Shown here: piece after piece, positions 4,741 through 50,222 of the stretch | Numbering within the stretch: position 1 is the stretch's first letter | How the letters are laid out: the number at the start of each line of letters is the position of its first letter | From: Oligosphaera ethanolica | Lineage (GTDB): Bacteria; Verrucomicrobiota; Lentisphaeria; Oligosphaerales; Oligosphaeraceae | Reading direction: 5' to 3' | NCBI RefSeq assembly: GCF_030814695.1 | Contig: NZ_JAUSVL010000001.1 | Span: 4,314,227-4,378,226 of the forward strand | DNA: 64,000 nucleotides | Made by a program: the position numbers and the translations under genes | The notes under the pieces: generated by a model | Told to the model about the DNA's origin: nothing | The model's input: only the letters and a program-made list of their open reading frames with translations | The model's database searches: none

Positions 4741-5370
4741 TTATTTCCCCGTGGCAGCCTTCAGTGCTGCTTCCTCTTCAGCAGTCAGGCCCAAGCACTC
4801 GGGGCACTCCCTATAGGCCGCCACGAGCCATTTCCAGTCCTCCAGACTCATATTCAATCCTTCAGGAACAGAAGTGATAGTGGTGTCGGAGGATACCCAT
4901 TCCTTGAGTTTAGCCAGTGTGAGCTTGGTGATACCAGTTCCATTTGACTGGGGCAGAGGCAGGGTAACAAGGTGGGGAGATAGCTTCACGCCGTCAACGG
5001 TCTGCAATTCAGCTGCCTGTTTGATGTATGCCTCGGCCGCTTCCGGCGCTGCTACCGCAAGGTCTACCAGATAGCCAGTAATTTGCACACCGGTTTTGCG
5101 GCTGATCTTCCGCACGCCCTTTAGCGTGTTCGTTGCAGGGTCGAACTGCAGGCCCATGCCCTCATCGACTTCAAGCTCCCAGCTGGAGTTTTCGCGAGGA
5201 ACGTCGACAATATTTAGGCCGTCCGTCCAGCTGACGTTTGCTGTGAGCTGCCCAGGATCGAAACCGATGTTGGTTCTTTTCCCGACAGTGAAAACAGCTG
5301 GGTTGTGCGAACAGCTGCAGGTGATAAAAGCCAGGATCAGGATCAGAGGGATGATGCAGGTGTGTTTCAT
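4741..5370 (-). CDS. Putative phage lipoprotein, 209 aa
   Basis: The N-terminus is a signal peptide (basic MKHT, hydrophobic CIIPLILILAFIT) with a Cys-Ser-Cys that could be a lipobox. The mature part is about 190 aa of unknown fold. A lipoprotein next to holin-like and lipase-like genes could be a spanin-type or superinfection-exclusion factor, but nothing in the sequence decides between them. A TATAAATA box lies 41 nt upstream of the start. Confidence 0.6.
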   Translation of the reverse strand: MKHTCIIPLILILAFITCSCSHNPAVFTVGKRTNIGFDPGQLTANVSWTDGLNIVDVPRENSSWELEVDEGMGLQFDPATNTLKGVRKISRKTGVQITGYLVDLAVAAPEAAEAYIKQAAELQTVDGVKLSPHLVTLPLPQSNGTGITKLTLAKLKEWVSSDTTITSVPEGLNMSLEDWKWLVAAYRECPECLGLTAEEEAALKAATGK

Positions 5371-5410
5371 GGTGGCCTCCGTGGTTGAGTGCGGGCGTAA
5401 AGGGCTCTGC

Positions 5411-5418
5411 TATTTATA
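5411..5418 (-). promoter_or_regulatory. TATAAATA late-promoter-like box
   Basis: The minus strand reads GCGTATAAATAGCAG. The same 15-nt context occurs at 11,617-11,624, and GTATAAATAG recurs at 29,638-29,645. It sits between a terminator (5446-5478) and the lipoprotein gene start at 5370, where a promoter is expected. No -35 at normal spacing is visible. Confidence 0.5.
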
Positions 5419-5445
5419 CGCAGAGCGTCAACCTGCGGGGAAAGA

Positions 5446-11605: not shown

Positions 11606-11616
11606 ATTTCACCTGC

Positions 11617-11624
11617 TATTTATA
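11617..11624 (-). promoter_or_regulatory. TATAAATA late-promoter-like box
   Basis: The minus strand reads GCGTATAAATAGCAG, identical over 15 nt to the box at 5411. It is only 12 nt before the ATG of 11315-11605, so a transcript starting here would barely include that gene's RBS. It would, however, carry the fibre genes downstream. Confidence 0.4.
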
Positions 11625-11634
11625 CGCTCGTGGC

Positions 11635-14957: not shown

Positions 14958-16964
14958 TCATCCAAAAGACAGTAAATTGTTGCGCAGAAGCTCGTTCGTT
15001 TGCGCGAGCTTGCGGTTGGTTTCCTCGACGCCCTTGGCCGTGCGTTCGGCCGCGTTGCCGCCTGTGCCAAGGAGCGACGCCGCCGATGCGCTGAAAGCGC
15101 CGGAGGGGCCCACGGCGCGCATCTTCTCGATGTTATCCACCGTGGAGTCTCCCATGTCGATCATGTTGTCAAAAGTCTCCGGTGGCGGCTGAAACTCCGG
15201 CACCGTAACCTGCGCCACTGCTTCGGCGATAGCCTTGCCGACGTCCGGCACACCACGCGCGGCCAAGGCGGACTGAGCATCGACGACCGTCTGCGAGTTG
15301 TCCGCGCCGGTTGTTTCGCGTAGCATCTTGCGCAGGACGCGGACACGATTGGCCTCCGCTTCCAACTCAGCGGAGTTCTTTTCAAGTTCGGCGTTGCGGT
15401 CACGGTGAGCGGTGAGTGGGTTGAAACGCTTGCGGTTCATGATCACCTCGCCCTGTTCGCGCAACGAATCGCGACGGGATTCGGAGGTGTGTAGCGCAGC
15501 GATAATTGCGTTCTTCTTGTCCGCGCCTGTTTTCCAGCGCACGCTGTTGAATGCCGTGTCGCTTGCCACCAGGGCTGCGTCGGCGTCATTCTGCGCGGCC
15601 GCGTCCTGCGCGGCAGACTGTTTCGCTTGCTGTACCGACCACGCGATAGCTGCCACCGCGCCGACGATTGGCAGCAATGAAATCATTGATGCGGTCAATG
15701 CCGGGCCCAGCAAAGCCGCTAGCTTGAGGATGGCCCCGAGGGCGCTAGACAGCTTGCCGATGACAATTAACGCCCCGCCGAGCGCAGCGAACTTCAGAGC
15801 CATCTCGCCAATAGTTGTGATTAGCTCCTGGTTGCGCTGAATAAAACTTGTGACGACACCCGCGATATCGGTCAGCTTGATCTGATACTCGGTCATCTTG
15901 CCGCTTATCGCTTCCCCAAGCGCGATATTGACGCCCTCAATGGCGCTCTTCATAATGCGCCAAGCGCCGCCCTGGCCGGACTCCATGAAGTTGTAAGTCC
16001 GTTGCGCCTCGCCAGCAGCCTGTTGCAGGCGGGAAAGAAACGCGTCTATGCCGCCCGCGCCCATGGACAGCGCGCCGCCGCCAAGCGAGCCACGAATATC
16101 AAAAATCTTGATGATAGCCTGAACACGCTCTGCAGTCGGCAGCCCCTCGACCGCTCGCCCAACCTCAGTAAAAATATCCAGCATGTTGCGCAAGTTGCCG
16201 CTGCCGTCCGTGGTCATGATTCCAAACGTATCCTTGAGATACTTCTGCACGCCCGGATCGGCCATCTGCTGAAAACTGCGGGAGATGGCCGTGCCGGCCT
16301 GCTCGCCACGGATGCCCATGTTGGCCAGGAGCCCAAGCTGCGCCAACAAGTCCTGGAAGCCAACGCCGGCCGTGACCGCGCGTGGGCCAGCGGTCTTTAG
16401 CGCCTCGCCCAGGTCGTGCAACGTCTGCGCACTCCCGTTGGCCGTGGCGGTGAGCAGGTCCGCGATGCTGGTCATGTCGGATGCCTGCATCCCGAAGACC
16501 ACCATATTGTTGCCTGCAATCTTGGCCGCTTCGGCAAGTTCCGTGCCGGTGGCTCTTGACAGATGCAGCATGGGCTCAATGCTATTGATGATCGAATCAG
16601 GAGAGAAACCCATGCGCGACATGGACAGCATGCCATTGGCAACCTCCTCGGCGGTGAACGATGTCGTGCGGCCGAGCTCCTTTGCCGTGTTGGTAAGCCG
16701 CTGAAAATCGTCGCCGCTGGCGCGGGACGTCGCCGCGACCATGCGCATGGCGTCATCAAAGCCCATAAACACCCGAGCAGCGTTGCCATAGGCAAGCAGG
16801 GCCGGCGTGGCGGCCTGGACCATGCCGGTGCCGGCCGCCGTCATCGTCGCCCCAAACTGCTGCAGGCGTGCCGCAGCAAGCCGCAGGCCCTTCTGCAACT
16901 CGCTGGCGTCAGTCGTCAGGTAGACGACGGCCTTGCCCGCTAATACGCTGCCGACTGTCGCCAT
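14958..16964 (-). CDS. Tail tape measure protein, 668 aa
   Basis: Sets tail length and takes part in DNA ejection. The first ~330 residues match the TP901-type tape measure core (AARVFMGFDDAMRMVAATSRASG, FTAEEVANGMLSMSRMGFSPDSI, GVGFQDLLAQLGLLANMGIRGEQAGTAISR). A hydrophobic stretch around residues 395-445 (LGALLKLAALLGPALTASMISLLPIVGAVAAIAW, read with minor gaps) follows, then a helical C-terminus. At 668 aa it is short, suggesting a tail near 100 nm by the usual ~0.15 nm per residue rule. Confidence 0.9.
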   Translation of the reverse strand: MATVGSVLAGKAVVYLTTDASELQKGLRLAAARLQQFGATMTAAGTGMVQAATPALLAYGNAARVFMGFDDAMRMVAATSRASGDDFQRLTNTAKELGRTTSFTAEEVANGMLSMSRMGFSPDSIINSIEPMLHLSRATGTELAEAAKIAGNNMVVFGMQASDMTSIADLLTATANGSAQTLHDLGEALKTAGPRAVTAGVGFQDLLAQLGLLANMGIRGEQAGTAISRSFQQMADPGVQKYLKDTFGIMTTDGSGNLRNMLDIFTEVGRAVEGLPTAERVQAIIKIFDIRGSLGGGALSMGAGGIDAFLSRLQQAAGEAQRTYNFMESGQGGAWRIMKSAIEGVNIALGEAISGKMTEYQIKLTDIAGVVTSFIQRNQELITTIGEMALKFAALGGALIVIGKLSSALGAILKLAALLGPALTASMISLLPIVGAVAAIAWSVQQAKQSAAQDAAAQNDADAALVASDTAFNSVRWKTGADKKNAIIAALHTSESRRDSLREQGEVIMNRKRFNPLTAHRDRNAELEKNSAELEAEANRVRVLRKMLRETTGADNSQTVVDAQSALAARGVPDVGKAIAEAVAQVTVPEFQPPPETFDNMIDMGDSTVDNIEKMRAVGPSGAFSASAASLLGTGGNAAERTAKGVEETNRKLAQTNELLRNNLLSFG

Positions 16965-20853: not shown

Positions 20854-23016
20854 TTAGACTTTGCCCTTGTTGAACACAATGCCCCGGTGATCCTGCTCAC
20901 GGACGCCGAAGTCGAAGTACACCCGGAAGCTCATGCCCAGGGTGTTGAAGTTGGTCTCGCCGAGCTCAACAGTCGGGGACTTCTTGCCACGGAAGTAGCC
21001 GATTTCGAAGGTGTCAACCTGGTTGGGATCGCCCCACAGGTACCAGCCGGTATCGCTGAAGCCGGTGTACGTGGCGTTGGTCAGATACGGACTCGCGATC
21101 GGAGTCAGCCCGTATTTGGCGATGACGTTGCCGGCTGGCACCACTGCGTCGCCACCAATCAGCAGCGTGCTCATGGTCAGGCGCTGAGCGACCGGGAACA
21201 GCACAGTCGGGACAAGCAGGAACTTCGGTTCGACCGAGATCGGCTGGCCATCACTGTCCACCTGGTCCATGAACTTGGTGATAGCCTTTTCCAGCGACTC
21301 AACGCCGAGGGCGCTTGTCAACCCGCCAGTGTAGTTCTTGTGGTCGGTAGAGAACAGCGCTTTACCGTCAGCCTGCACCGGATTGCTGAGCAGGCGACTG
21401 AAAAACACCTGGTCAATCTTGCGCTTGCCACGGCTGCCGAACCCGGTTGGAATCTTCAGAAACTCGCCAAGATCATCGTCGTAGATCATCTTCCGCGTCA
21501 GGGTGAACACCTTGCCGTAGGTGCTGAGTTTGTTGGTTGCCCGGTCTTCCGAGACCGTACTGTCCTTCAGCTCGCCATCAGCGCCGACCAGCTCAAGGTC
21601 ACCGACATCAACAAGGCGAACCCGTTCAGCCTCTTTGAAGTCATTCAGGTCGCCAACCGAGCACAGCTTCGAGGCGATGCTGTCGATGGCGTTGTACGCC
21701 TGCAAGGCCTTCTTGTTGGCGACGTTGCTCAGGATGCCTGGCAAACTGACAGTGGAGAACGCCGCCTTGATGGTGTCGTTGTTGAACGCCACGCCAACGT
21801 TTTTGCCCTCCAGGCGGCACGCTTCGACCATGACGTCTTTCAGGCCCATGCCCCGGAGATGCTTGTCCGCAATGTCCATGGCTTTCTCGCCACATGTCGC
21901 CTTGATGATGTCCTCTTTGATGCCGCACTGGAAACTGAGGGACGCCTCAAGCGCCGACGCGTCAACACTCGGCCCGTTGCGAACGATGATGTTGCCGGTA
22001 GCGCCGGGAAGTTTCGACGCGTACGCCTTGAGCACTTCGACCGCCTGTTCGGTCTGGATCTTGCTCCACCCGGCAGAAATGGCTTTCTCCCGAATGTCGG
22101 GGTATTCAGCTGTGATTTTGTTGATGTCGGTGATGCGAGTGGTTTCTTGGGTTCGAGCGGCCTCCAGGGCCTTTTCGACCGTCTTGCCGACGACATTTTC
22201 AAGGTTGAGTGCCCCTGCGGTGAGCGTGGGCGTGTCAACCGTGGGCGTGGCAGTGTTGTGCAAAGTCTCGCCAGCACTGCTGCCATGAGCGGCCGCCTTC
22301 AGCATGTCGGCCTTTTCAGCCTCCACGTTACTGCCGACCGTGGTCAGGTGCGCCTTGATGGCGGTTTCGTCCCAGTCGGGACCGAGGGAATACTTGGCAC
22401 GGATGAAGTCTTGCAGAATTTTGTCCATTTGATGCTGTTCCTTCTGGGTTTGGGGGTGGGGCTGGTTGGATGCAAGAGTGATCATGTTGAAACTGGCGGC
22501 AATTTTTAAATGAGTCGAAATGTCAGCGCCGACCGCGACTATCGAAACCTCACGCAACAGCGCTTTGGTCACATGGACGATTGGCCCTTGAAATTTTTGC
22601 CCGTTGATCGTCCTCTCTTCACCTTCTGGGATGCGTTCGCTCGCCATGACGTCGGCGCCAATCGACAGCTGCCAGTCAATTTTTTTGCCCGCTTCGGCGA
22701 TGTACTTTCCCTTCTCATTCGATGTGTCAATGCCACCGGAAACAAGAAGCTGATTGCTTGCCTTCTTTGCCGTCACAACACCAAGGCGAGCGCCGGGGTC
22801 GTTCCAGTGAGCAAGGAGCAGCGGGATTTGTGGGGCCATTTCCATGCTGGCAATATCCACAACAACCCGATCTCGCCAGCCCAAATTCATCATGCCGCCG
22901 GAATAGGCAACGCCAGAAACCTTCGTCAAGTCGCGATATGTTTGGCCGGTCGCCTCGACGTACTGAATGGAATCAGCGCATTCGCCGCCAGTGGCCATGA
23001 TAAAAGGTTTACTCAT
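20854..23016 (-). CDS. Fused prohead protease - major capsid protein, 720 aa
   Basis: Residues ~1-175 are an HK97-type (S78) prohead protease: catalytic His70 in PLLLAHWNDPGARLG and Ser158 in LLREVSIVAVGAD. A charged, helical, Gln-rich linker (about 180-340) fits a scaffold or delta domain. The rest (about 350-720) is an HK97-fold-type major capsid protein. The protease should cleave itself and the scaffold during head maturation. The 8-nt overlap with the portal gene is normal for head modules. Protease-MCP fusions are known, but separate genes are commoner. Confidence 0.85.
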   Translation of the reverse strand: MSKPFIMATGGECADSIQYVEATGQTYRDLTKVSGVAYSGGMMNLGWRDRVVVDIASMEMAPQIPLLLAHWNDPGARLGVVTAKKASNQLLVSGGIDTSNEKGKYIAEAGKKIDWQLSIGADVMASERIPEGEERTINGQKFQGPIVHVTKALLREVSIVAVGADISTHLKIAASFNMITLASNQPHPQTQKEQHQMDKILQDFIRAKYSLGPDWDETAIKAHLTTVGSNVEAEKADMLKAAAHGSSAGETLHNTATPTVDTPTLTAGALNLENVVGKTVEKALEAARTQETTRITDINKITAEYPDIREKAISAGWSKIQTEQAVEVLKAYASKLPGATGNIIVRNGPSVDASALEASLSFQCGIKEDIIKATCGEKAMDIADKHLRGMGLKDVMVEACRLEGKNVGVAFNNDTIKAAFSTVSLPGILSNVANKKALQAYNAIDSIASKLCSVGDLNDFKEAERVRLVDVGDLELVGADGELKDSTVSEDRATNKLSTYGKVFTLTRKMIYDDDLGEFLKIPTGFGSRGKRKIDQVFFSRLLSNPVQADGKALFSTDHKNYTGGLTSALGVESLEKAITKFMDQVDSDGQPISVEPKFLLVPTVLFPVAQRLTMSTLLIGGDAVVPAGNVIAKYGLTPIASPYLTNATYTGFSDTGWYLWGDPNQVDTFEIGYFRGKKSPTVELGETNFNTLGMSFRVYFDFGVREQDHRGIVFNKGKV

Positions 23017-24526
23017 CGTCTTCGTCCTCGTTTCGAGTTGTGGCTGATTCGCTTCCGGGTTGTTCTGGTGTTGGTATCCCTAGTTTTATACGCATGCGAT
23101 TTTCTCGGGCGACCTGTCTCAAGACTCGACTCCAGTCCTTGCCATCCTTGGCACATTCGTCGGCCAGTGTTGTGGTCCCTGACGCCAAGCGTATCTTCTG
23201 GGCGTTGGCCTCCTTGACGGGGTCAACGTGATCAAATCCGTCCCACATCCACTCATGCTCAGTTTCGATGGAATCATCATAATCTTCCGGGAAGAACACC
23301 CTGTCGATGGCCTCGAAGTCATGAAGGAGGTCATCCAGGATAACCTCGCCAATGTCTGCGCGTTCGTTTCTGATGGCCCTGAAGTACGTTTGATGATCCA
23401 GCCGGCCTGATGCGTAGTTGTATCCGGAGGAATCCCCCATGGCGACGTTCATGGCCATAGAGAGGGGCCTGGCTGCCTCACGGATTTTGGTTTTCACAAA
23501 GTCCGAGTGTGTCGACGTGGGCTGTTCGGCCTTCATTTGGCTCGCTGTCCAGCCGGCCGGAAGTGCTATCCCTGCGTTGCGACACAGGTCGATCACCGTT
23601 CCAGGAGTTAGGGGAACGGGATTTTTCACGTCTTCGTCGTCAACCGGGGCGTTGCTCGACAAAATGAAGCTGATCTCTGCTGCCACCTCGGCGGCAGCAA
23701 GAACGGCAGTCGTGAACCGGCGTAGATCGTTGAACCCGGGCAGCGTACTCGCGATTTCGGAGATGCCACGGTGCTGCCCTGGCCGCCATATGTTGGCATA
23801 ATGGATGACGTTCTCAGCCTTCACCATATAAGAGTCGGCCGTCGTCACGCTTCCAACGCTGGAAGAACCGGGGTGAATGCGCCAGAAACGGTATGCAATC
23901 GGGTTTCCGTGCTGGTCGTATTCAATTCCGTCAAATTCCTTCGGAACTCCGGTGCTGTGGAAGTCGGTCAGTGTTGAATGAAAAGCGGAACCGACCTGTT
24001 CGGCCTCGAAAGTGTCAATGCCGATTTTTACATGACTTCGAATCCTTGGGTTGTTGTTTTTCATCAAAAACACCTCGCCGTCAAGGGCTTTCGACCGCCG
24101 AGCCATTTTCAGGGTTTTCGCAAGGTGTACTGCCTTCGCCCACTTCCGCCAGCGTGCTTCGCGCCGGTTGAGTCGGGTTTCCCATTCGAGCACAATGTCG
24201 TCTTCCTCGTTTTCGCACAGCGACAACTGGAGTCGCGGGCCCGTGCCGATGACGTCGTCTGCCAGGGTCTTGAGAATTCCCTCACAGTAGCCATTGTTCG
24301 CGGCTTCATACCTGGCCCTGGAAATGATGATATGCCTGATAGAAGGCGCCATCGCGGCATCTGCCGACAAGAAGTCTGCTCCCTGCCAGTGCCGGCTTGA
24401 TTCGGCTTCTCTGCTGGCAGCGTCGAATTTGCCACGCACCGGAAAAATGAAGTCACCGCGTCCTGGCGTAACCGGGCCGGTCGACTTCACAACGGCCTTC
24501 GATTTTGGCTTGCTCTTCACTGTCAT
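23009..24526 (-). CDS. Portal protein, lambda type, about 505 aa
   Basis: Forms the dodecameric DNA entry channel at the capsid vertex. Lambda-portal features include the early segment with YCEGILKTLADDVIGTGPRLQ, GEVFLMKNNNPR, GIDTFEAEQVG, IEYDQHGNPIAYRFW, NVIHYANIWRPGQHRGISEI and AMGDSSGYNYASGRLD. Start chosen at 24526, where the ATG overlaps the stop of the upstream gene (ATGA); an in-frame ATG 48 nt further upstream lacks an RBS. Its end overlaps the protease-capsid gene. Confidence 0.92.
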   Translation of the reverse strand: MTVKSKPKSKAVVKSTGPVTPGRGDFIFPVRGKFDAASREAESSRHWQGADFLSADAAMAPSIRHIIISRARYEAANNGYCEGILKTLADDVIGTGPRLQLSLCENEEDDIVLEWETRLNRREARWRKWAKAVHLAKTLKMARRSKALDGEVFLMKNNNPRIRSHVKIGIDTFEAEQVGSAFHSTLTDFHSTGVPKEFDGIEYDQHGNPIAYRFWRIHPGSSSVGSVTTADSYMVKAENVIHYANIWRPGQHRGISEIASTLPGFNDLRRFTTAVLAAAEVAAEISFILSSNAPVDDEDVKNPVPLTPGTVIDLCRNAGIALPAGWTASQMKAEQPTSTHSDFVKTKIREAARPLSMAMNVAMGDSSGYNYASGRLDHQTYFRAIRNERADIGEVILDDLLHDFEAIDRVFFPEDYDDSIETEHEWMWDGFDHVDPVKEANAQKIRLASGTTTLADECAKDGKDWSRVLRQVARENRMRIKLGIPTPEQPGSESATTRNEDEDDE

Positions 24527-24732
24527 CGTTCTGGGCCTTGGGTGGATATCCTGGCAATTTTCATTCCTGCCCATGGATTTCTGGATGCGCGCTTCTTGGA
24601 TAGATGTTCATCCAGCTTGATCATGTCCGGGATTGGGCGGCTGCGGACCTTTTCGCCGTCGATTTCGTATTCTTCAGGCTGGACAGCCTTCTCAAGAATT
24701 TTCTTTTCAAGGTCTGATGCGTCTGTGCTCAT
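24523..24732 (-). CDS. gpW-like head completion protein, 69 aa
   Basis: A 69-aa protein between terminase and portal, the position and size of lambda gpW. The segment YEIDGEKVRSRPIPDMIKLDEHL resembles the hairpin-helix part of such proteins. The call depends on gene order and size. Confidence 0.5.
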   Translation of the reverse strand: MSTDASDLEKKILEKAVQPEEYEIDGEKVRSRPIPDMIKLDEHLSKKRASRNPWAGMKIARISTQGPER

Positions 24733-24775
24733 TTTTCCTCCAAAGGTTTACTGATTATACGCTGAGGAAAAAAAA

Positions 24776-27115
24776 TCAGCGCAGCGGCGTTATCCTGGTA
24801 CTTGATGGGGAAATGCGCCCAGACGGTGAAATGCGTCCAGTCACGGCCGACACTATGTCGTGGGCGTGAAGTTGTGGCCGCCCCGCGTTGGGCTTGCCCT
24901 CGTTACCACCGCCGAGCTTGCAGCCTACGATGCTTGCCGCCACCATGCACCCCACCACGCAGTCCAGCCAGTGGTTTTCGCGACCCGGCAACGTTTCCCA
25001 TATTTCCACCCGGCGTCCACGTCCGGCGGTCGCTACGCTGTACTCGCTGGACAAATGCTGAGAAAAAAGAAAATGGGACTCCGGGCTGCTTCCCCATATC
25101 GATAGGCTGCCGATGTCGCCCATAGTCGTCAGCAGGCGCTCGCGGAAGAATGTTTTCCAGAAGTTCGCATCGTACAGGACGTACCGTCCAGTCCTTTTCC
25201 GAGGCGCGCGCACGATGTACCAGTTCAGCCCGTGCTTCTCGCCCGGACGCCGTTGATATTCAGTCATCGGCTTCATGGACGCGGTGATACCGACGCCCTT
25301 ACTCGGAAGCAATCGAGCCGAGTGGATTGATTCCTTGCACACTTTGTAGACGGTATCGGTCGACAACCCCCAGCCAGAATCGACCATACACCTGTCGAGG
25401 TGCATATCGGCGCCATCTTCACGCTGCCAGGTCCTGGACAGCAACGAATCTGTTATTTCCTTGGTTGCCGAGTAAATAGCGCCTTCAAGCCCGGCACCCG
25501 CATATAGGTCAGGGTAGGTTTTGATGACGTCGTCCAAGCTGAAGGTTTTTCTTCCCTGTTCTGGAAATGTTCCATAATCAACAACCCAGCCAGTGAAGTC
25601 GCTTGAGAAAGCGCAGACCGTGTAAAAGAGGACCTTCTTCTGCACGTCAACAAAAGCGACAAGGTTTTCTGCCGCCACGGGGATGGTGTACCTGGGACGG
25701 TTGTTGAGCCGGTCGAACACGTGTTGCTCTGTGATGCGCTCGGCGTCGCCGTAGTCTGGGGGCAGGGGCTCGTTCTGGCACTCCGCGTAGAAGGAGTCCT
25801 TGTCTTCCAGAAACTTGGTCATAGCATGCTGAATTGCCGACGCTTCGTCGTCCTCGTAGTTGCCTTCCCACGACACGACGGCTCCTTCGTCCATGGCTTC
25901 CCGATTGGCCAGATAGAATTCGGTCGCGTCGCGGCGTTCTCGGCCAGCGCGCTGGGATTCCCTGAGTGTGTCCGAAAACTTGAGCCACAGGTCCATGTTT
26001 TTGGGGAACTGGAGCACCATCTTCATTCGCTCGCCATTCCAGCGAGGATGCTTGTCTCGATCAAGAATTTGGTCTGCCATATCTCCTGGTTTTATGACTG
26101 TGCAGGGCATTACTCCTGATAGCTTCACGCCTGGGCCGGGCAAGCCGAGGATTGCCTTGCTGAGAATCTCCAGTCTCTTGTTATTCTGGTCCATGCTTGC
26201 GGCTGACTCGTCTGTCTGCGGGTCGTCGATGAGGACATATTGCGGACGGACGCTGGTACCATCGCCAAGCGATGCCTTGCGGCCGCGAATCCGGCCGGTG
26301 ATGCCAACCACCTGAATGGCGATGCCAGACGCTGGTGAATCCTGAATGCAGGGCAGGGATATCTCCGCGTCTTTCCACTTGATCCTGGTTCGTTCGCCTC
26401 GGCAGGTCTGGCCGGATGACCGATTGACAATGCCGTCCAAGCGTCGAACCGGGTAACACACTTCCGGGAAGTCCTCGTGCAGGAGGTCGTTGCTTTCGAT
26501 CTCGAACTTGATTTCGGACAGCGATTTGGTCGCAGCGTCTTCCGTCGCTCCGATCAGCAGGATGTATTTGCGGTGCCCATACAGGGCTGCCCAAATGGCC
26601 GACATCTCGCAGATCGTTGTTTTCCCCGACGCCCGTGGCATCGCCAAGGCGAACAGGCCACCATGAAGAAGTGATCTCTCTATTTTTTCAATCACCCGCA
26701 GGTGGTCCGGGCCCCAGCCGCGATTGAATTTGGCCGGGAAGTAAGTCTCAAAAAACAGTTTGAGGTTGAGTCTGCAATTCTCTTTTCGTTGCGAGTCAAC
26801 AACTTGCGGTATTGGCCCAATGTCACGCCCTGACTGCGACGCGACCGCGCTGCGCTCTCGGGCCGCTTCTTTGATTTCATCGTAGGTCCGGGGCGATGTG
26901 TTTTTTCGTTGTTCTTCTTTTGCCGCTCGTTCATCCGCCAGCCAGGCGACGTACCTCAGCATGCTTACGGTTTTCCCGGCCGGGTCGCCTGCGATGCGGT
27001 ACCCTGCGCGCTGCAGGTGGCGACTCACCTGACGCTCGCCCATCACTTGACCAAGAGGGGTTGAATTCAGAATCCTGGTCGCTGCGGCTGGCGTCATCTT
27101 GTTCAGGTTAATCAC
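24776..27115 (-). CDS. Terminase large subunit (gpA-like), 779 aa
   Basis: Packages DNA and cuts concatemers. Walker A AMPRASGKTT (residues ~158-167), Walker B YVLIDDPQTDE (~293-303). The nuclease domain starts near residue 485 (LVAFVDVQKK, first acidic residue), with LDRCMVDSGW and WETLPGRENHWLDCVVGCMVAA at the C-terminus, as in gpA-type terminases. The first ~110 residues are an extra DNA-binding-like region. The start is GTG at 27115, overlapping the stop of the preceding gene (GTGA). The C-terminus carries two copies of GRISPS from a short tandem repeat. Confidence 0.92.
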   Translation of the reverse strand: MINLNKMTPAAATRILNSTPLGQVMGERQVSRHLQRAGYRIAGDPAGKTVSMLRYVAWLADERAAKEEQRKNTSPRTYDEIKEAARERSAVASQSGRDIGPIPQVVDSQRKENCRLNLKLFFETYFPAKFNRGWGPDHLRVIEKIERSLLHGGLFALAMPRASGKTTICEMSAIWAALYGHRKYILLIGATEDAATKSLSEIKFEIESNDLLHEDFPEVCYPVRRLDGIVNRSSGQTCRGERTRIKWKDAEISLPCIQDSPASGIAIQVVGITGRIRGRKASLGDGTSVRPQYVLIDDPQTDESAASMDQNNKRLEILSKAILGLPGPGVKLSGVMPCTVIKPGDMADQILDRDKHPRWNGERMKMVLQFPKNMDLWLKFSDTLRESQRAGRERRDATEFYLANREAMDEGAVVSWEGNYEDDEASAIQHAMTKFLEDKDSFYAECQNEPLPPDYGDAERITEQHVFDRLNNRPRYTIPVAAENLVAFVDVQKKVLFYTVCAFSSDFTGWVVDYGTFPEQGRKTFSLDDVIKTYPDLYAGAGLEGAIYSATKEITDSLLSRTWQREDGADMHLDRCMVDSGWGLSTDTVYKVCKESIHSARLLPSKGVGITASMKPMTEYQRRPGEKHGLNWYIVRAPRKRTGRYVLYDANFWKTFFRERLLTTMGDIGSLSIWGSSPESHFLFSQHLSSEYSVATAGRGRRVEIWETLPGRENHWLDCVVGCMVAASIVGCKLGGGNEGKPNAGRPQLHAHDIVSAVTGRISPSGRISPSSTRITPLR

Positions 27116-27306
27116 TCATCGTTCTCCCGTATTAGCCATGCAGCATAGTGAATCAGGTTGATGGTGCCATCATCGTTCACAGGAGCCCCTTTGGAAATGT
27201 CAGACTCCAGCGTGTCCCTCGATATTGTCGATGAGCCCACCTTAACCAGCAGTTCTACCAACTGTTCCTTTGTTAGTGCTACAAGATTTATACGCTTCAA
27301 CGCCAT
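27112..27306 (-). CDS. Small packaging-associated protein, 64 aa
   Basis: Contains ISRDTLESDISKGAPVNDDGTINLIHYAAWLIRE, a pattern seen in small phage proteins directly upstream of gpA-type terminases; it may be a short small-terminase analogue. AAGGAGG precedes the ATG, which lies inside the end of the upstream gene. Confidence 0.6.
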   Translation of the reverse strand: MALKRINLVALTKEQLVELLVKVGSSTISRDTLESDISKGAPVNDDGTINLIHYAAWLIRENDE

Positions 27307-29307: not shown

Positions 29308-29637
29308 GATATGAACCTTCTAAAATAAAAACCGTCCGCAAAAAGAAAGTGTGTGGACCCTCAGCGCTCCTCCGCGTGCCCAAGGCGCGCCCCGGCCCCG
29401 CCGGGAGGACCCAAACCCCCCCCCTAGACGACCCCCTTGGGCCACGTCCAAGAGGCTATCCGAGCCCCCAAACGGCCCCGCATTCGCGTTTTATGGCGAT
29501 TAGCCGGGCAGCTTGCAGCTTTCGATAGAAGATGGCTACAATCGCTTGTTTTCGGCCGCTGTGAACGCCCCGCGCTGAGCTGCAGGCGACCGGCCGCCGA
29601 CGAGCTGAGAAGGCCCAGGGGCAGGCGGGCCTCTCTC

Positions 29638-29645
29638 TATTTATA
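29638..29645 (-). promoter_or_regulatory. TATAAATA late-promoter-like box before the late block
   Basis: The minus strand reads GGAGTATAAATAGAGAG, about 330 nt upstream of the first late gene. It shares GTATAAATAG with the boxes at 5411 and 11,617. It could drive the whole leftward block. Confidence 0.5.
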
Positions 29646-29754
29646 CTCCGACGCTTTTTTAGCCTGGGGCAGGCACGATCGCTGCTCTGAACGTGGCGTT
29701 GACGGCGTGCCGGCCTGGAGTGAAAGAGAAGGAAAGAATCGTTTGGCGCTGGCG

Positions 29755-30031: not shown

Positions 30032-30478
30032 AATCTTACTTTGTTAAGTGCTACCAGTTTCTATTTTCATAAGCTACTTGTAATTATGGCTATATCGCAT
30101 GCTTTTTCCGCCCAACTTAGTTTAGATTAATTCTGGTTGCGTTTCTGGGCGTGTAACTAGCTGACAAATGGTTGTTTGTAGACCAGCCGTATGAAAATGA
30201 AGAAGAAAGCAAGTTTCAGGCGCGAAAAGCCGCTAAGAGCTTCCGTTTTCGTTTAATGTGATTGCATTCAATGCAACTCTTGCATAGCGTCCGTCCAATT
30301 TTTCTACTCATTTTTCTATAACTTTTTTCTTTTTTTATCGTTAATAAATACTTGTAAACGACACTAAAAGCTGTAATGTATAGGTGTTGGCGGAAAAGCC
30401 CAGGCCGCCAGCCCCGGGGACCGATCGGTCGAGGGTTTCAGCAGGGCAAGGCTCCGCGAGTAAATAGGGGACGTTCCC

Positions 30479-34313: not shown

Positions 34314-35036
34314 TCACGTCTTCTCGTCCAGGTAGCGTTCCCAGAAGTGGTGCTTGCCGTTGGCGTGCATGGTTTCGCGGAGTTTAATCTCGTCGCGGAT
34401 GCTGGTGACAACCAGATAGATGCCGCGCACGGCGAAGTGGTCCGATTTTTTGAATTCGAGCTTGCAGCCGTTGTCTTCGTTGATGGAGAGCAGGAGGAAG
34501 GTGTCCTTGCGCTCGACGTAGGTCTTGAAGACGACTGATCCGTCGGCCAGGATGGCAATGACGCCGTCACCATTGCGCAGGCGTGCGCCGGGCCGGACAA
34601 GGACAATGGTCCCGGCAGGGTACCATGGTTCCATCGAATCGCCGACGACGCGAATGGCAACGTCTCCGGGGCGGCCATTATGGACTGACACGCGCTCCTC
34701 GGAGTTGGCGTCGGCGTAATCGGCCATGGGTATGATAGCGGTGTTGCACTCGGCTGCGGCAGCCAAGCTGATGACGGGGTAGGTGGGCAGGGGCTCGGTG
34801 ACGAACTCCGCGTTGGATTCGCACCGGGTAGGATGTGTCGGTGGATTGTGGGTCATGTAAGGACGCAGTACAGGCTCAAGGCTTTCCCAGTTCGAAGGCC
34901 TAATGAACGTTGCAATGCCTGACTTCCACCCTCTGACGGCTGTGTGACTCATTTTCACTGCGCGAGCGAGCTCGCTCATTGAATGCTTCTCAAGGTACTT
35001 GTTGATGGCGGCTCTGATTTCAGGTGTAATGTCCAT
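34314..35036 (-). CDS. CI-like repressor, HTH + S24 peptidase, 240 aa
   Basis: Keeps the lysogenic state. Residues ~1-45 form a helix-turn-helix (SMSELARAVKMSHTAVRGWKSG). Residues ~88-225 form a LexA/UmuD-type S24 domain with Ser133 (VVGDSMEPWYPAGT) and Lys171 (GSVVFKTYVER). Autocleavage normally occurs at Ala-Gly or Cys-Gly; here the matching place reads ISLAAAAECN, with no Gly. It is divergent from the Arc-like and antirepressor genes, forming the genetic switch. Confidence 0.9.
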   Translation of the reverse strand: MDITPEIRAAINKYLEKHSMSELARAVKMSHTAVRGWKSGIATFIRPSNWESLEPVLRPYMTHNPPTHPTRCESNAEFVTEPLPTYPVISLAAAAECNTAIIPMADYADANSEERVSVHNGRPGDVAIRVVGDSMEPWYPAGTIVLVRPGARLRNGDGVIAILADGSVVFKTYVERKDTFLLLSINEDNGCKLEFKKSDHFAVRGIYLVVTSIRDEIKLRETMHANGKHHFWERYLDEKT

Positions 35037-35344: not shown

Positions 35345-35398
35345 TTTTTTTTGCTTTTGATTGAATGTTACGGAATGTTAAACAGCGAGGAGTGGCGT

Positions 35399-36127
35399 AT
35401 GTCTAGTGAAATCGAGAAAATTGAGTTTTGCGGGCGCGGGTTGGTTGCGGTGAAAGAAAATGAAACAGTTCTTGTTGCTTTGAAACCGATCTGCGATGCT
35501 TTGGAATTGCATTGGTCAACGCAACGGGAAACCATCAAAAACGACCCCGTTCTTGATTCAGTTGTGCGCGAAATCCGCACAACTGGCGCCGACGGGAAGC
35601 AGTACGTGATGCTCTGCCTCCCCCTTGACTACCTCAACGGGTGGTTGTTCAAGATCAGCGCGAAGCGCTACACCGGCGCGCGCCGGGACGCCATCGTCCG
35701 CTACCAGAAGGAATGTTACCGCGTCCTCGCGGAGCACTTCTCGTCACAATCGCTCAGCAGCGACAAGCCCTCCAAGGCGACGATCCGCCTGCAGACGCCC
35801 GAAGAGGTTGCCCGCGAGGTGACCCAAACCGCTAACAGCATCCAACAAGAACTTCAGCGCCGCGCGTGGGAAGAGACCGGCGAGCTTCGCTGTCAGCTGT
35901 ACTTCTTCGCGATCCAGCGGGGAATTGAAGACGCCGATGAACTCGCCGATCTGGCCCGCACGGCCATGTCGCATCCGGATCGGATGGATTTGTTCAAGGG
36001 CGTCACCATGCCGCCGGATTTTCGCCTTTGGCGGTACAGCCACTACCACCCTGCGACGTTCGCCCGGGTGCTGAAGCGGTTCTGCAACAGCCGCGTCCAT
36101 GGTTCTGGGGCTGAGTCCCTCGGGTGA
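35399..36127 (+). CDS. Phage antirepressor (P22 AR-N-like domain), 242 aa
   Basis: Start set at 35399 (MSSEIEKIEFCGRGL) with GAGGAG upstream; an upstream in-frame ATG lacks support. Residues ~5-110 match the P22-type antirepressor N-terminal domain (LVAVKENETVLVALKPICDAL, STQRETIKNDPVL, MLCLPLDYLNGWLFKI, YQKECYRVLAEHF). The C-terminal part is helical and unrecognised. Paired with the Arc-like gene, as in the P22 immI region, it may inactivate the CI-like repressor. Confidence 0.85.
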   Translation: MSSEIEKIEFCGRGLVAVKENETVLVALKPICDALELHWSTQRETIKNDPVLDSVVREIRTTGADGKQYVMLCLPLDYLNGWLFKISAKRYTGARRDAIVRYQKECYRVLAEHFSSQSLSSDKPSKATIRLQTPEEVAREVTQTANSIQQELQRRAWEETGELRCQLYFFAIQRGIEDADELADLARTAMSHPDRMDLFKGVTMPPDFRLWRYSHYHPATFARVLKRFCNSRVHGSGAESLG

Positions 36128-37398: not shown

Positions 37399-37415
37399 TT
37401 TTCGGGAGGTGCGTA

Positions 37416-37694
37416 ATGCGGGAATGTCCTGATTACATCGTCGAGGGTATCTCGGTCCTTGTCGGGCCGCACATCGGCCGCCGTCCCGAGGAAAGCGAAG
37501 TCCGGCGCCTGTTGGACCAGCTCCGCAGCGGCAAGCCGGCAACGCTCAGCACATGGGCGAACCGGTACGGAATCAAGACCGGTACTCTGCGCGCCCGGCT
37601 GCGTAAGGCCAGCATCGAGCCCTGCGGCATGGAGGCCAATCGTGAGCTCTACTCGGCGGCTCAAATTGCCGAGGTGTGTCCGTCGGTGTCTTGA
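37416..37694 (+). CDS. HTH-type hypothetical protein, 92 aa
   Basis: Start set at 37416 (MRECPDYIVEG) after GGGAGG. The segment TLSTWANRYGIKTGTLRARLRKASIEP is a likely helix-turn-helix, followed by a short helix. Probably a small DNA-binding regulator of the early block. Confidence 0.6.
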   Translation: MRECPDYIVEGISVLVGPHIGRRPEESEVRRLLDQLRSGKPATLSTWANRYGIKTGTLRARLRKASIEPCGMEANRELYSAAQIAEVCPSVS

Positions 37695-37718: not shown

Positions 37719-39332
37719 ATGAATTTTTTCGATGAGGACTTGATTGCCCCGTTGGCGGCTGGGATTGAAAAGCGCGTTGGCGGCGCCGTCGCCAAAAATG
37801 TGCCGTGGATTTTGCGTGACCTTGAGAAAAACATCGAGGATACCAAGGCCGAGGAAATGGATCTGCCTGTCACTGTGAAACTGCGCGTGGTCGGTGTCAG
37901 CGCCAATCGCGTGAAGGTCATCATCGACCAGATTCAATGGGTGCGGAAAATTCAGCGTGTTGAGAAGGGCTTCCAGTCGCTGGACGTCGATCTTGACCAG
38001 CCATTGCTTCCTGGCCTTGACGACGAAAGCCAGAGCGCACCGACGGTTGTCTACGATGAAGATCACGATGACATGAAGTCCATCCTTCGCTTCGCCGAGA
38101 AGTACAGCAAAAAATTGATGCGCCTGGCCGATCCCACCGACGTCAATTGTCGGGTTCTGCAGGTCTGGAAGGGTGACAGCGGCTGGGAGAACTACCCCGT
38201 CGAGACCGTCGAAGAAGTTTACTCAATCATGAATGAACTCGTTGCGGCCGAGGGCGGTTTGGCCTTCGCGAGCGAGGGCGTGTTGCTTCTCGCGGCCTGG
38301 GACGTCATTGAGGACGCCGGGCACGTCTTGTATGGGAGGAGCGAAAAGGGCGCGATTTACAATCCCCGTTCAGCTGGGCCGGTTACTCTCGACCAGGATT
38401 GCGTCTGCGTGAAGATGCCGTATCACTGCGAGAAGGTTACGCAGCCCGTGGTTGATGCCGAGATTGACCCTCTGGACGAGTTGGAGGTTGGGCCAGATGC
38501 TGCCGACATTGCCGAGGTTGATGCCGCCGCTTCTGCCAACGCCGACGCCGCCGATGCGCCCGCTGACCCCGTCGTTGATGCCACCGGGAATTCTGAATCC
38601 GTCAACACCGTCGAAAAGCCGAAAGACGAAAAATGGGAAGCGTTGCTGGCTGAAGCGCAAAACGTGATACAGGACTTCCCAACGGTGTCGGAAGACCTGT
38701 TGCAGCGATGCATGAACCAAAGTTTCGCGACAGCTGGTAATCTTTTGGATGACCTTCAGGCTCGCGGCGTCGTTGGGGCGCCACTGCCGCCGTTCGGTCA
38801 TCGCAATGTTCTCAAACCTGCCGGCGACGCCCAAGTCGCTGCCAATGAAGCCGCCGAAGCGCCTGATGAATCCGATGTGCTCGACGTCCCTGAAACCCTC
38901 AGTGACTCTGATGATGAGTGGTGGCGGGCGCGCACAGCCAATGCCAAGAAGCTGCTCGCGGCCGGAATTCCGTCTTGCTGCGTTCTGCCTTCTGGTACAG
39001 CCGCTGCAATGTCAGCGACGCTTCTCGATGACTTCATGTGGGAGATACGTAAGTTCCCCACCAAGACCGCCGCAAAGGCCCATGTCGTGAACTTGCGCGT
39101 GACTGCTGGCTATGTGGACCCGTCGATTACGTCCAACGATTACGACACCATTAAAGCGGCTGCCTTCGCCATCATCCGCAAGGGGCTTGTGTATTCCGAC
39201 AAGACGCCTTTCTACACCATCCGCGCCCAGGAGGGCAAGGGGTGGAGTGTCCAGGCGAAGTACCCAACCGAGGCTGAGCGCGACACGGCCTTCGAGAAGT
39301 TGCTGAAGGATCAGAATGTGCTCGAAGGATGA
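37719..39332 (+). CDS. Early protein with FtsK-gamma-like winged helix, 537 aa
   Basis: The N-terminal ~100 residues have alternating strands (PVTVKLRVVGVSANRVKVIIDQIQ, first part) of unknown fold. An acidic Ala-rich linker spans ~245-300. Residues ~305-365 read ALLAEAQNVIQDFPTVSEDLLQ, then ...AGNLLDDLQARGVVG, matching the FtsK gamma winged-helix pattern that reads KOPS sequences. The C-terminal region (about 420-537) is a mixed alpha/beta domain. Function unknown; sequence-specific DNA binding is inferred. RBS AGGAGG. Confidence 0.6.
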   Translation: MNFFDEDLIAPLAAGIEKRVGGAVAKNVPWILRDLEKNIEDTKAEEMDLPVTVKLRVVGVSANRVKVIIDQIQWVRKIQRVEKGFQSLDVDLDQPLLPGLDDESQSAPTVVYDEDHDDMKSILRFAEKYSKKLMRLADPTDVNCRVLQVWKGDSGWENYPVETVEEVYSIMNELVAAEGGLAFASEGVLLLAAWDVIEDAGHVLYGRSEKGAIYNPRSAGPVTLDQDCVCVKMPYHCEKVTQPVVDAEIDPLDELEVGPDAADIAEVDAAASANADAADAPADPVVDATGNSESVNTVEKPKDEKWEALLAEAQNVIQDFPTVSEDLLQRCMNQSFATAGNLLDDLQARGVVGAPLPPFGHRNVLKPAGDAQVAANEAAEAPDESDVLDVPETLSDSDDEWWRARTANAKKLLAAGIPSCCVLPSGTAAAMSATLLDDFMWEIRKFPTKTAAKAHVVNLRVTAGYVDPSITSNDYDTIKAAAFAIIRKGLVYSDKTPFYTIRAQEGKGWSVQAKYPTEAERDTAFEKLLKDQNVLEG

Positions 39333-39333
39333 C

Positions 39334-39702
39334 ATGCGCACACGCAAGGCGTCATCTCTCGATGCTCTCGCCAGCCTGGTGAAAATCGGACTGGCGTCTT
39401 CCGAAAGCCAGACCCGTCTGGCGAGTGAGACCATGCGGTGCGCTCGGATCGCGGCGATCATGGCTGTGAAGAGTGGTTTGGTAACGTGGGACGATGTCGA
39501 CGACATCACCCAGTCAATAACCCTAAAATCCTGGCGGTACCTGCAACGCTGGGAGTCATCAAAAGGAGGATGGTCGACCTATGTGGGAAAGATCGCGCAG
39601 TCCGTGATTGGCGATTATGGCCGGCGCAATGGGCGCAGGCAGGATGCGGAGAACGCCTATCGTGACATGAACAGTAGTGAATTAGGAGCTGATGATGAGT
39701 GA
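39334..39702 (+). CDS. Sigma region 2-like small protein, 122 aa
   Basis: Start chosen at 39334 (MRTRKASSLDALA) with GAAGGA 6 nt upstream. Residues ~50-105 match sigma70-family region 2: WDDVDDITQSITLKSWRYL followed by W...GGWSTYVGKIAQSVIGDYGRRNGRR, that is the D(x)2D(I/L)TQ core-binding helix and the aromatic/basic -10-recognition helix. No region 4 is present. T4 gp55 is also a minimal sigma lacking region 4 and reads TATAAATA. A role in late transcription is inferred. Confidence 0.6.
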   Translation: MRTRKASSLDALASLVKIGLASSESQTRLASETMRCARIAAIMAVKSGLVTWDDVDDITQSITLKSWRYLQRWESSKGGWSTYVGKIAQSVIGDYGRRNGRRQDAENAYRDMNSSELGADDE

Positions 39703-40642
39703 CGAAAACAAAACAACGAGTCTCGAGCGTGTCGTCCCGGCCCAGTCGCCGTGTCGCCAACTGCCCGTGAACTCAATGCAGGACATCGCGGTGGCCGGCG
39801 AGCTGATCGCCCGCAGTGGCATGCTCGGTGCGAAGAATCCGGCCGAGGGCTTTTTGATTGCCGCTACCTGCCTGCAGGAGGGGATGAGCTTTCTGAAATT
39901 CGGCGAAAAGTATAACGTGATCGCTGGCCGAATAGCGATCAAGGCCGAGGCAATGCTCGCAAAGCTGCTGGAGTTGGGCGGTGACTACAAGGTTCTCGAC
40001 CGGTCGGCCGACAAGGCCAGCCTGAAGCTGCGGTTCCGTGAGGCTGAGTTTGTCTCCACCATGACTTGGGAAGAGGCGCAGATCGAAAGTTACACACGCG
40101 CGAAGGACGGGAAAAGTCTCAAGGACAACTGGAGCACACCCCGGCGCCGCGCTCAGATGCTTTGGGCTCGGGCGGTCAGCGACGGCGTGCGCGTTGTCTG
40201 TCCGCTGGCGACCCAGGGCACTTACACGCCTGAAGAGGTCATGGATTTTGACGATCCGCGCCCCGTCAGCCAAGTAGGTGAGGTGATTGATCTGCCTGCG
40301 GTCGCTCCGACTCCAGTAGCGGCCTCTGCCGCAGCTCCCGCGCCGCAGCCTGAGTCTGCGCCCGCAACGATGGCGGCGACGCCACGCCAATCGCAGCCAT
40401 CGGCGGCAACCAAGGCCGCATCCATGCAGATGCCGTCCGTCACCGCTGGCACGCCCTTTGACATTCCGCCGGCGCAGCCTGACGTGGATTACAGCATCTG
40501 TCGGGCGCCTGGCATCTTCCAGGGCAAACCCTGGCGGGACGTCCCGACCGATCAGCTCAAGCTGGCGCTGAACGTCACAACGCCGAACCTCACGCAGGGC
40601 GACCACGCAGTAATCAAACAAATCATCGAGGAAAGGGGCTGA
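39695..40642 (+). CDS. RecT-type single-strand annealing protein candidate, 315 aa
   Basis: The first ~185 residues have the pattern of phage recombinases of the RecT/Bet type: VAGELIARSGML, AATCLQEGMSFLKFGEKYNVIAG, IAIKAEAMLAKLLELGGDY, then TWEEAQ...NWSTPRRRAQMLWARAVSDGVRVVCP and GTYTPEEV. A Pro/Ala-rich linker follows, then a C-terminal motif FQGKPWRDVPTDQL as in phage replication accessory proteins. Starts at one of two adjacent ATGs; the second has better RBS spacing (AGGAG). Works with the neighbouring SSB-like and nuclease genes. Confidence 0.65.
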   Translation: MSDENKTTSLERVVPAQSPCRQLPVNSMQDIAVAGELIARSGMLGAKNPAEGFLIAATCLQEGMSFLKFGEKYNVIAGRIAIKAEAMLAKLLELGGDYKVLDRSADKASLKLRFREAEFVSTMTWEEAQIESYTRAKDGKSLKDNWSTPRRRAQMLWARAVSDGVRVVCPLATQGTYTPEEVMDFDDPRPVSQVGEVIDLPAVAPTPVAASAAAPAPQPESAPATMAATPRQSQPSAATKAASMQMPSVTAGTPFDIPPAQPDVDYSICRAPGIFQGKPWRDVPTDQLKLALNVTTPNLTQGDHAVIKQIIEERG

Positions 40643-47696: not shown

Positions 47697-50222
47697 ATGA
47701 TGAAATACGATCTGGACGAGCTACGCCAACGGGTGTCAGCGCGCGAGGTAGCCGAGCGCGAGCTGGGGGTGACGATATCTGGGACTCGTTGCGTCGCCGT
47801 GTGGCGCGGGGGAAAAAACCCAAATGTCGAATTCTACGAGGACGGCTGTTTCCGCGACCACAAGACCGAGGATCACGGCGGGCCCGCGACGTTGCTGTCC
47901 ATCGCCCGGGGGATATCGCTCGAGGATGCCGCTAACGAGCTGGGCGACCGCTATTGTCCCGATCTGGATCGCACGCAGAAGGCCAATGCGCGCTCACTGA
48001 CGCCGAAAAAACGCGCGACGCGTGCAATGACGACTGCTGCTGTTGCCGCGCCGGCAAACGCGGAGAAACAAGCCAATCCGGCGGCGTTTCTGCCGGTTGG
48101 CCTGGCGGTCTTGCCGTCAGCGCCAGCAAATCGCTATGATGAGTTGATCTCGCAGGGCTTCCTGCGCGTTGCCGATTATCACTACCGTGACGCCGATGGT
48201 AACATCATTTATACCGTCGTTCGCTTGGAAAAGGTCGCCAACGGTAGCTGCACGAAGGAATTCCTGCAGAAGACCGAGGCAGGCTGGGGAATCAAGGGCA
48301 TCAAGCCCATCATGTACAATTTGCCTAATGTGCTGGCGGCCGGCAGGGTGTACGTGGTCGAGGGGGAAAAAGACGCCGACACGCTGAACAGTCGTGGTTT
48401 TGTGGCCACCACCTGCAGCGGTGGTGCGGGCAAGTGGCGCGAGGAATTTTCCGAGCTGCTGGCCGGCAAAGATGTTGTCATCCTGGGCGACAACGACGAG
48501 AAGGGTTATATCCACATCGAGCGTGTTGCCCAGTCGTTGTGTAAGCGTGCTCGGGCGCTCAAGGTCATCCTTCCGAGCAGGGCAGCCAAGGGGGACGTCA
48601 CCGACTACTTCCTGAAAAACCACACCAACGCCGATTTCCTGACGATGGTCAACTCTGCGCCGCTCTACCGTCCGTTGCGGCCTGGGATGGTTACGCCGGC
48701 GATGCTCCATGACGCCAAGGAACTCAACAAGACGCCATTCAAAAACTTTCGGGTGGTCAAGGTCGGCGACCAGATCAATCATGAGCCCGTCGGCATCCAG
48801 GAGATGCTTGTGGACTCGTCGCGCCGCCTGCTGGGTTATCCGTATCGCCTTGGCTCAACGACCCTTTTTGATCACGACAAGGACAGTCGGGAAATTTACG
48901 AGATCACCTCGCCGGACAAATTCTTCGAGTGGCTCCAGCGCAAAACGAAGCAAAACTATCAATGGAAAAACGGGACCGGCCTGGTCGTTAAGCGCGAGTT
49001 CTACGAGTCTGTCTTCGCCACAGCGCGGCGTTTTGAGGCCATCAGCGACGTGCCTGGCTATCCTGAGAATCCTGACGTCTACTACACTTTCAGCGATTTG
49101 CCTGAGCCGTCGCCGAATCACGAGGTGTTCGAGAAGTTCCTCGACTTCTTTTGCCCAGCCTTTCCCTGGCAGCGGCCGATGCTGCGGTGCTTCTTCGCGG
49201 CGCCGATCTGGTACCGACGGAACTGCTCGCGTCCCAGTTGGGTGATTGACTCCGTGGCTGGCACCAAGGTCGGTAAAACAACCCTGGTGGAAACCCTGGC
49301 CGATCTCTACAGGTGCTCTCCCATCCGCATGAGCCGGCGGGATATCGATAACCATCCCGAGGAAATCATCAAGCGCCTGATTTCGTCCAGCGGCCGCAAG
49401 TCAAAAATTGCCCTGATTGACAACGTCCAGGGTGAGTTTCACAATGAGGTCCTGGCGGACTGGATTACTGCCCGGATGCTCAGCGGTCGTGCCCCATATT
49501 CCGCTGGCGAGGAGCAGCGCCCCAATGACATCACGTGGGTTATCACCTCAAATGGCGCACGCCTGGACACCGACCTGTCCGGCCGGAGCTTCTTCGTGTC
49601 CCTGCAGCGGCCGGAGCACAACCTGGGCCGGTGGAACGACATGGTGAATTCTTACATCACGGACAACCGCATGCAAATCTTCGCCGATATCCTGGACATC
49701 CTGGAAAAACATCAGCCATTTGAAATCCCGCCTGCTACCCGCCACGCTGAGTTCGAGCGTGAGGTGCTGCAGGCTATGTGCTTCGACGAAACCACATATA
49801 CGACCATCGTTGAGCACATGCGCGACTCGCGCGAAACGGCAAACGTGGAGCTGGACGAGTGCTACCAGATTATCGACTCCGTCCGGGCGGCCCTTGCGGA
49901 AATACCCGGCATCAATCCTGCGGAGGATTGCGTGTGGATTTATTCCGACCTGTTCAAGAATTGGACCAAGGACATCCTCGAACGCCGGGTGACCTGCCAG
50001 GACTGCAGGAACTTCGCCCGGGAGGGCATGACCCCCCACTTCGACAAGATTCTGGATCGGTTCCCCAGGTCCACCATGAACAGCCTGCGGCGCTCGGGCA
50101 TTATGTGGGTAGGGGAGCAGGCGGATCGCCAAAAGGCAAAAATCGTAGGCTTCCTCAATCGCGGGAAACCAGTCATAAAGGGAGAGGCAAGGTATGAAGA
50201 AGGCAAAGCACCCACAGCTTGA
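47697..50222 (+). CDS. Primase-helicase, 841 aa
   Basis: Start at 47697 or 47700 (two adjacent ATGs). The N-terminus resembles a CHC2-like primase domain without the zinc Cys (CVAVWRGGKNPNVEFYEDG, HGGPATLLSIARGISLEDA). TOPRIM near residues 218-265 has YVVEGEKDADTL and DVVILGDNDEKG. A C-terminal helicase ATPase starts near 515 with SVAGTKVGKTTLVETLA and IALIDNVQGEF. Such fusions replicate phage DNA. It overlaps the nuclease gene by 29 nt. Confidence 0.85.
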   Translation: MMKYDLDELRQRVSAREVAERELGVTISGTRCVAVWRGGKNPNVEFYEDGCFRDHKTEDHGGPATLLSIARGISLEDAANELGDRYCPDLDRTQKANARSLTPKKRATRAMTTAAVAAPANAEKQANPAAFLPVGLAVLPSAPANRYDELISQGFLRVADYHYRDADGNIIYTVVRLEKVANGSCTKEFLQKTEAGWGIKGIKPIMYNLPNVLAAGRVYVVEGEKDADTLNSRGFVATTCSGGAGKWREEFSELLAGKDVVILGDNDEKGYIHIERVAQSLCKRARALKVILPSRAAKGDVTDYFLKNHTNADFLTMVNSAPLYRPLRPGMVTPAMLHDAKELNKTPFKNFRVVKVGDQINHEPVGIQEMLVDSSRRLLGYPYRLGSTTLFDHDKDSREIYEITSPDKFFEWLQRKTKQNYQWKNGTGLVVKREFYESVFATARRFEAISDVPGYPENPDVYYTFSDLPEPSPNHEVFEKFLDFFCPAFPWQRPMLRCFFAAPIWYRRNCSRPSWVIDSVAGTKVGKTTLVETLADLYRCSPIRMSRRDIDNHPEEIIKRLISSSGRKSKIALIDNVQGEFHNEVLADWITARMLSGRAPYSAGEEQRPNDITWVITSNGARLDTDLSGRSFFVSLQRPEHNLGRWNDMVNSYITDNRMQIFADILDILEKHQPFEIPPATRHAEFEREVLQAMCFDETTYTTIVEHMRDSRETANVELDECYQIIDSVRAALAEIPGINPAEDCVWIYSDLFKNWTKDILERRVTCQDCRNFAREGMTPHFDKILDRFPRSTMNSLRRSGIMWVGEQADRQKAKIVGFLNRGKPVIKGEARYEEGKAPTA

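Follow-up and report, generated by a model that had tools for sequence, protein, structure and literature searches.

The question raised by this locus is whether a phage protein that retains region 2 of a sigma factor and no region 4 could switch on the late genes of its phage. The window (the whole stretch of DNA that was analysed, 64,000 nucleotides long, positions 4,314,227-4,378,226 in a 5.73-Mb genome) carries a prophage in its first 51 kb. Up to about 29.3 kb the minus strand carries the late genes, which encode a methyltransferase/ParB-like protein, terminase, portal, fused capsid protease, tape measure and fibre, and the repressor, antirepressor and recombination/primase genes occupy 34 to 51 kb. 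The capsid protein has a single GTDB match, in a Lentisphaerae MAG. Pilin-like genes are present among the host genes, and from these two observations the host is probably a member of the Lentisphaeria.

The prophage and its sigma region 2 protein

The genes that enter the argument are as follows.

4741..5370, minus strand: lipoprotein-like late gene (its counterpart in the congeneric genome G001 is 71% identical)
8880..11324, minus strand: tail-fibre-like protein (late)
14958..16964, minus strand: tape measure protein (late)
20854..23016, minus strand: fused head protease/major capsid protein (late)
23009..24574, minus strand: portal (late)
24776..27115, minus strand: large terminase (late)
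34314..35036, minus strand: CI-like repressor
35351..36127, plus strand: P22 Ant-like antirepressor
37719..39332, plus strand: 537-aa gene directly upstream of the sigma gene
39334..39702, plus strand: sigma region 2-only protein of 122 aa, in the early/replication operon; region 4 absent
39692..40642, plus strand: gene overlapping the 3' end of the sigma gene, with a weak match to a RecT-like annealing protein
47697..50222, plus strand: primase/helicase of the early operon

The late strand begins with a gene (27916-29307) that fuses a ParB-like domain to a DNA methyltransferase. An amidoligase-like gene (30479-31387, plus strand) lies between the late and early modules, and a gene-poor, A+T-rich stretch of about 700 bp (29700-30400) is located between the late strand and this gene.

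The sigma gene has GAAGGA 7 nt ahead of its ATG and overlaps the stop region, or nearly touches the stop, of the preceding 537-aa gene; an alternative in-frame ATG at 39316 would give a product of 128 aa. The first-pass annotation had read a sigma region 2-like core in the 122-aa product and had seen no region 4. Both readings were borne out. The protein matched Pfam Sigma70_r2 over residues 52-102 (E=5e-5; at 23.5 bits against a cut-off of 24 the match is half a bit short) and PHROG 1740, 'RNA polymerase sigma factor' (1.5e-5). No match to region 4 with its helix-turn-helix (HTH) was obtained in the protein, and just 20 residues follow the region 2 match. Region 2.2 (DDVDDITQ) and regions 2.3/2.4 (GWSTYVGKIAQSVIGDYGRR) are kept. 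The structural check against sigma region 2, for which an AlphaFold model (pLDDT 88.9) was searched with Foldseek, agreed with the sequence matches. The top matches were sigma-E region 2 with -10 DNA at a probability of 1.00 (TM 0.62-0.64 of the query, best E-value 6e-3). The structural neighbours also include the Pribnow-box region of SigC and, among viral proteins, phage sigma factors such as the 134-residue sigma-like factor of Klebsiella phage KPV15.

Six homologues with about 26-37% identity were found in five other genomes of the host family, so that the protein is carried by six of 29 family genomes, and no others turned up in 198 genomes of the class. Most are open frames of 95-137 aa, usually with a primase gene as neighbour; the homologue in G008 has 176 aa, and region 4 was likewise not recognised in it. 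The C-termini vary among the homologues, and regions 2.2 and 2.3/2.4 are conserved. Sigma70_r2 (PF04542) is matched by six of the seven family members (best 5.1e-11). The alignment is too variable for pattern scans; as a profile searched against the PDB it matched SigC region 2 at 1.2e-6, and 22 of the 24 matches were sigma factors, nearly all of them of the ECF type (among them SigC, sigma-E, CnrH and SigW). No relatives of the 122-aa protein or of one homologue were found in IMG/VR, nor any of the former among annotated phages, and scans of viral contigs with flanking genes (the 537-aa gene, the terminase of L060 and the primase of L053) returned none. No description of such a phage sigma was met in the libraries or in the literature, where the search covered papers outside subscription. 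By sequence and predicted fold, the 122-aa product is an ECF-type protein confined to sigma region 2, and its family looks ECF-derived.

Candidate late boxes in the window and in related phages

In the first-pass annotation TATAAATA had been noted at three minus-strand sites (5411, 11617 and 29638), together with TATAAATC at 27285 and TATAATC at 24753. All of these were recovered as described. TATAAATA is present exactly three times in the window, each time on the minus strand (0.27 copies were expected, and one of 100 shuffles reached three), and GTATAAATAG likewise has three copies. The 15-nt identity that had been pointed out between two of the sites is real, GCGTATAAATAGCAG being found at both 5411 and 11617. 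The core of the box is longer than TATAAATA and reads GCGTATAWAT; GCGTATAA is present in four of the five boxes first noted and is missing at 29638. The candidate boxes in the window are the following.

5410..5421, minus strand: late box GCGTATAAATAG, with the lipoprotein-like gene 4741-5370 starting 50 nt downstream
11616..11627, minus strand: late box GCGTATAAATAG, followed by a 96-aa ORF and the tail-fibre gene 8880-11324
23084..23093, minus strand: box GCGTATAAAA, within the portal gene at its 3' end; the capsid/protease start is 76 nt further on
24753..24762, minus strand: box GCGTATAATC, in the gap after terminase, ahead of the following gene
27286..27295, minus strand: box GCGTATAAAT, in the opening codons of a small ORF that precedes terminase; coding, a weaker candidate
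29637..29646, minus strand: box GTATAAATAG, lacking the upstream GCG; the methyltransferase gene starts about 340 nt further on

The distance from box to gene start is 20-80 nt in most cases, and terminator-like sequence precedes several of the boxes. One of these is the 5410 box, which is conserved in G001 (L129). A hairpin reading of this box (CTCTGC..GCAGAG) was rejected: one arm is mismatched in G001 and the hairpin is absent at the other boxes. The 11616 box also has a counterpart in G001 (L132). It had been cautioned that the box at 11617 leaves its nearest gene no room for a ribosome binding site; this difficulty is eased if the box serves the fibre gene, because the equivalent box in G001 is located 56 nt upstream of that gene. 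Counterparts of the 23084 box are found at L059:3079 and L061:10502, and the gap that holds the 24753 box contains a CGTATAWA box in six relatives. The 27285 box falls in the first codons of an ORF and 23084-23093 in the portal gene; therefore, not all boxes are intergenic. Of the six boxes in the window, three are less clear-cut (27286 and 23084 are coding and 29637 is without GCG), and among the relatives the boxes of L132 and L059:3079 overlap coding sequence.

The box is rare and confined to the late strand. The entire 5.73-Mb genome contains GCGTATAAATAG twice, each time on the late strand of the prophage. On the 30 kb of the late strand GCGTATAA is present five times against 0.11 expected from a 400-kb sample of host DNA, and it is absent from the opposite strand of the same 30 kb. 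The claim that the boxes have no -35 was upheld by an alignment of 14 boxes, in which strong information is confined to GCGTATAWAT and the -35 region is flat. Promoter discovery in the host was weak (nine pairs versus 4.5 in shuffles), and a plain sigma-70 promoter scan between the repressor and antirepressor genes yielded nothing. At 24753, at 29637, in L059-L062 and in L156, A or T tracts were seen about 8-13 nt ahead of the CGTATA core, with a stretch rich in G/C after them; these tracts could either belong to the promoter or simply be the T-runs of terminators.

The GCG extension was spotted after the window sequence had been viewed, and the relatives therefore provide an independent test. 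A terminase search identified late modules in G001, G015, G017 (two) and G007. In all four modules from genomes that carry the sigma protein, the late strand carries CGTATAWA in the gap that separates terminase from the small gene after it (P<=0.009 per module by dinucleotide shuffles), and outside CGTATAWA these gaps look diverged. The motif is also present between portal and capsid in L059 and L061. The G001 genome has seven copies of GCGTATAWAT, four of them at late-module positions that match the window, i.e. between terminase and the next gene, between portal and capsid, before the fibre gene and before the lipoprotein gene. A third, divergent late module in G017 (L151) has no box, and the GCGTATAWAT copies in G008 and G023 are not beside proteins of these phages in the loci returned. 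A portal profile retrieved 80 phage loci from IMG/VR, 71 of which had enough upstream sequence. Two of these, L155 and L156 (portals 54 and 52% identical), have a CGTATAWA box; both are metagenomic phage fragments, and the sigma gene was not found in either record. The box is absent from L157 (portal 54%) and from the 68 more distant portal relatives. Taken as sequence elements, the boxes are very probably late promoters of the phage.

A proposed late switch and its alternatives

It had been proposed that related prophages be searched for the sigma protein and the box together, and the two were indeed found together. Among the 29 family genomes the protein is present in six, the late module in five and both in four (hypergeometric P ~0.003, or ~0.011 without the genome of the window); in G001, G015 and G017 the sigma gene and the late module are on different contigs of fragmented assemblies and are linked by binning alone. 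The carriers G008 and G023 are without this late module and fall outside the box comparison. G007 is the single genome that has the late module without the protein, and no CGTATAWA was detected on its late strand between the terminase and capsid genes. Just upstream of its terminase genes this phage encodes a 179-aa protein (L064:10254-10793) that has a part resembling region 2 and, on inspection by eye, a tail resembling region 4. The link between protein and box is suggestive and comprises few independent lineages; the co-occurrence could reflect shared descent of one phage lineage and not function.

Phages with related portals have sigma-like proteins as well. The 40-kb phage of G214 (L157; L238 and L239), with a portal 54% identical, has its own region 2-only protein (L237:1465-2097, minus strand; Sigma70_r2 E=0.0012). 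In this phage CACGGTGTAAAWACTA is repeated before two late genes, and the gap that follows terminase has no CGTATAWA box. In G223/G224 a 227-aa protein (L235:1180-1860) combines region 2 (1e-7) with a C-terminal HTH.

We infer that the boxes would be promoters and that they are probably read by the sigma region 2-only protein. This minimal sigma would consist of an ECF-type region 2 and a short N-terminal helix, region 4 being missing, and would be expressed together with the early replication genes. The protein would attach to the beta' clamp helices of the host core RNA polymerase, displace the host sigma and steer the polymerase to one-element late promoters, with GCGTATAWAT at -10 and no -35. 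As the early proteins accumulate, the genes for head, tail and lysis, which lie on the opposite strand, would be switched on. As a complete account, that the protein directs late transcription from GCGTATAWAT boxes is likely, judged from sequence and the structural model.

The late promoters might instead be read by the housekeeping or another sigma factor of the host as strong or extended -10 elements, with another phage activator, while the sigma-like protein does something else. TATAAA and TATAAT are similar to the housekeeping -10, and extended -10 promoters can function without a -35; moreover, L155 and L156 have the box in records where no sigma gene was found. However, the box is very rare in host DNA (GCGTATAA is present three times per 800,000 strand-bases of the host sample, and CGTATAWA once in 18.9 kb of host upstream regions), the TATA is preceded by GCG and not by TGN, and no other late activator was recognised among the annotated early genes. 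In addition, a TTGACA-spacer-TATATT pair in the G007 phage suggests that the host sigma makes use of a -35. We consider this reading unlikely. Were the sigma split and region 4 supplied by a second phage protein, a candidate would be the 94-aa HTH protein encoded at 37410-37694, just upstream of the sigma gene in one operon, which has a weak HTH and a weak Sigma70_r4 match (E=0.075). This protein was rejected as a region 4 partner, being present in just two of the six carriers (G000 and G001, 73% identical in the latter) and absent from the others, and the boxes show no -35 that region 4 could contact; such an arrangement is very improbable. It is equally doubtful in the extreme that the protein is a host-takeover factor, which would occupy the beta' clamp and block the host sigma without recognising promoters, the boxes belonging to another system. 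Phage inhibitors of sigma binding are known, and the clamp-binding region 2.2 is conserved, but so are regions 2.3/2.4, which melt and read the -10, and a rare -10-like box co-occurs with the protein.

Late transcription directed by the region 2-only protein, if true, would give phages of a little-studied group of bacteria a mechanism for the late switch, and would offer a compact promoter system of one domain and one element that is testable in vitro. Somewhat speculatively, a late sigma of one domain may have arisen in temperate phages separately from T4, through the loss of region 4 from an ECF factor, with sister phages using different pairs of sigma protein and box. These pairs would then form a natural series for the -10 recognition code.

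Comparison with known systems

The well-studied phage late sigma confined to region 2 is gp55 of T4, which works with a coactivator and the sliding clamp. Should small temperate phages have a second case, unrelated to gp55, this would suggest that region 2 can suffice by itself. Sigma similarity in gp55 is restricted to domain 2, and T4 late promoters consist of a TATA-type box of 8 bp that lies about one helical turn ahead of the start, without a -35 (PMC2988020, PMC7892883). The present system shares with it a small phage protein with sigma similarity in region 2 only and, in candidate promoters recognised from sequence, a TATA-type late box at -10 without a conserved -35. It differs in that the protein has 122 aa instead of 185 and no recognisable clamp-binding tail, in that the box is GCGTATAWAT and not TATAAATA, and in that the phage is temperate, with a host from another bacterial phylum. 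Neither a gp33 nor a sliding clamp was recognised among the early proteins scanned. The gp55-like switch suggested in the first-pass annotation thus holds as an analogy (region 2 only, a late box at -10 only) and not as descent: hhalign detected no sequence relationship to gp55 (probability 0.14%, E 0.42), and the protein is ECF-like.

With ECF sigma factors (TIGR02937, TIGR02989, PF04542) it has in common the sequence and fold of region 2, its closest solved relatives being region 2 of SigC, sigma-E and SigW, whereas region 4 is missing here and the putative promoters are without a -35. SigO/RsoA of Bacillus subtilis also has sigma domains on a protein without the other half, but no conserved partner with the missing domain was found in the carriers of the present protein. 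The phage sigma factors of PHROG 1740 are matched by four of the seven family members (best 3e-9), but that profile has 567 positions, of which the match spans about 63. The protein was filed as a minimal phage sigma variant, because it has no gp55 match and its nearest families are ECF; it probably follows a gp55-type logic from a different ancestor.
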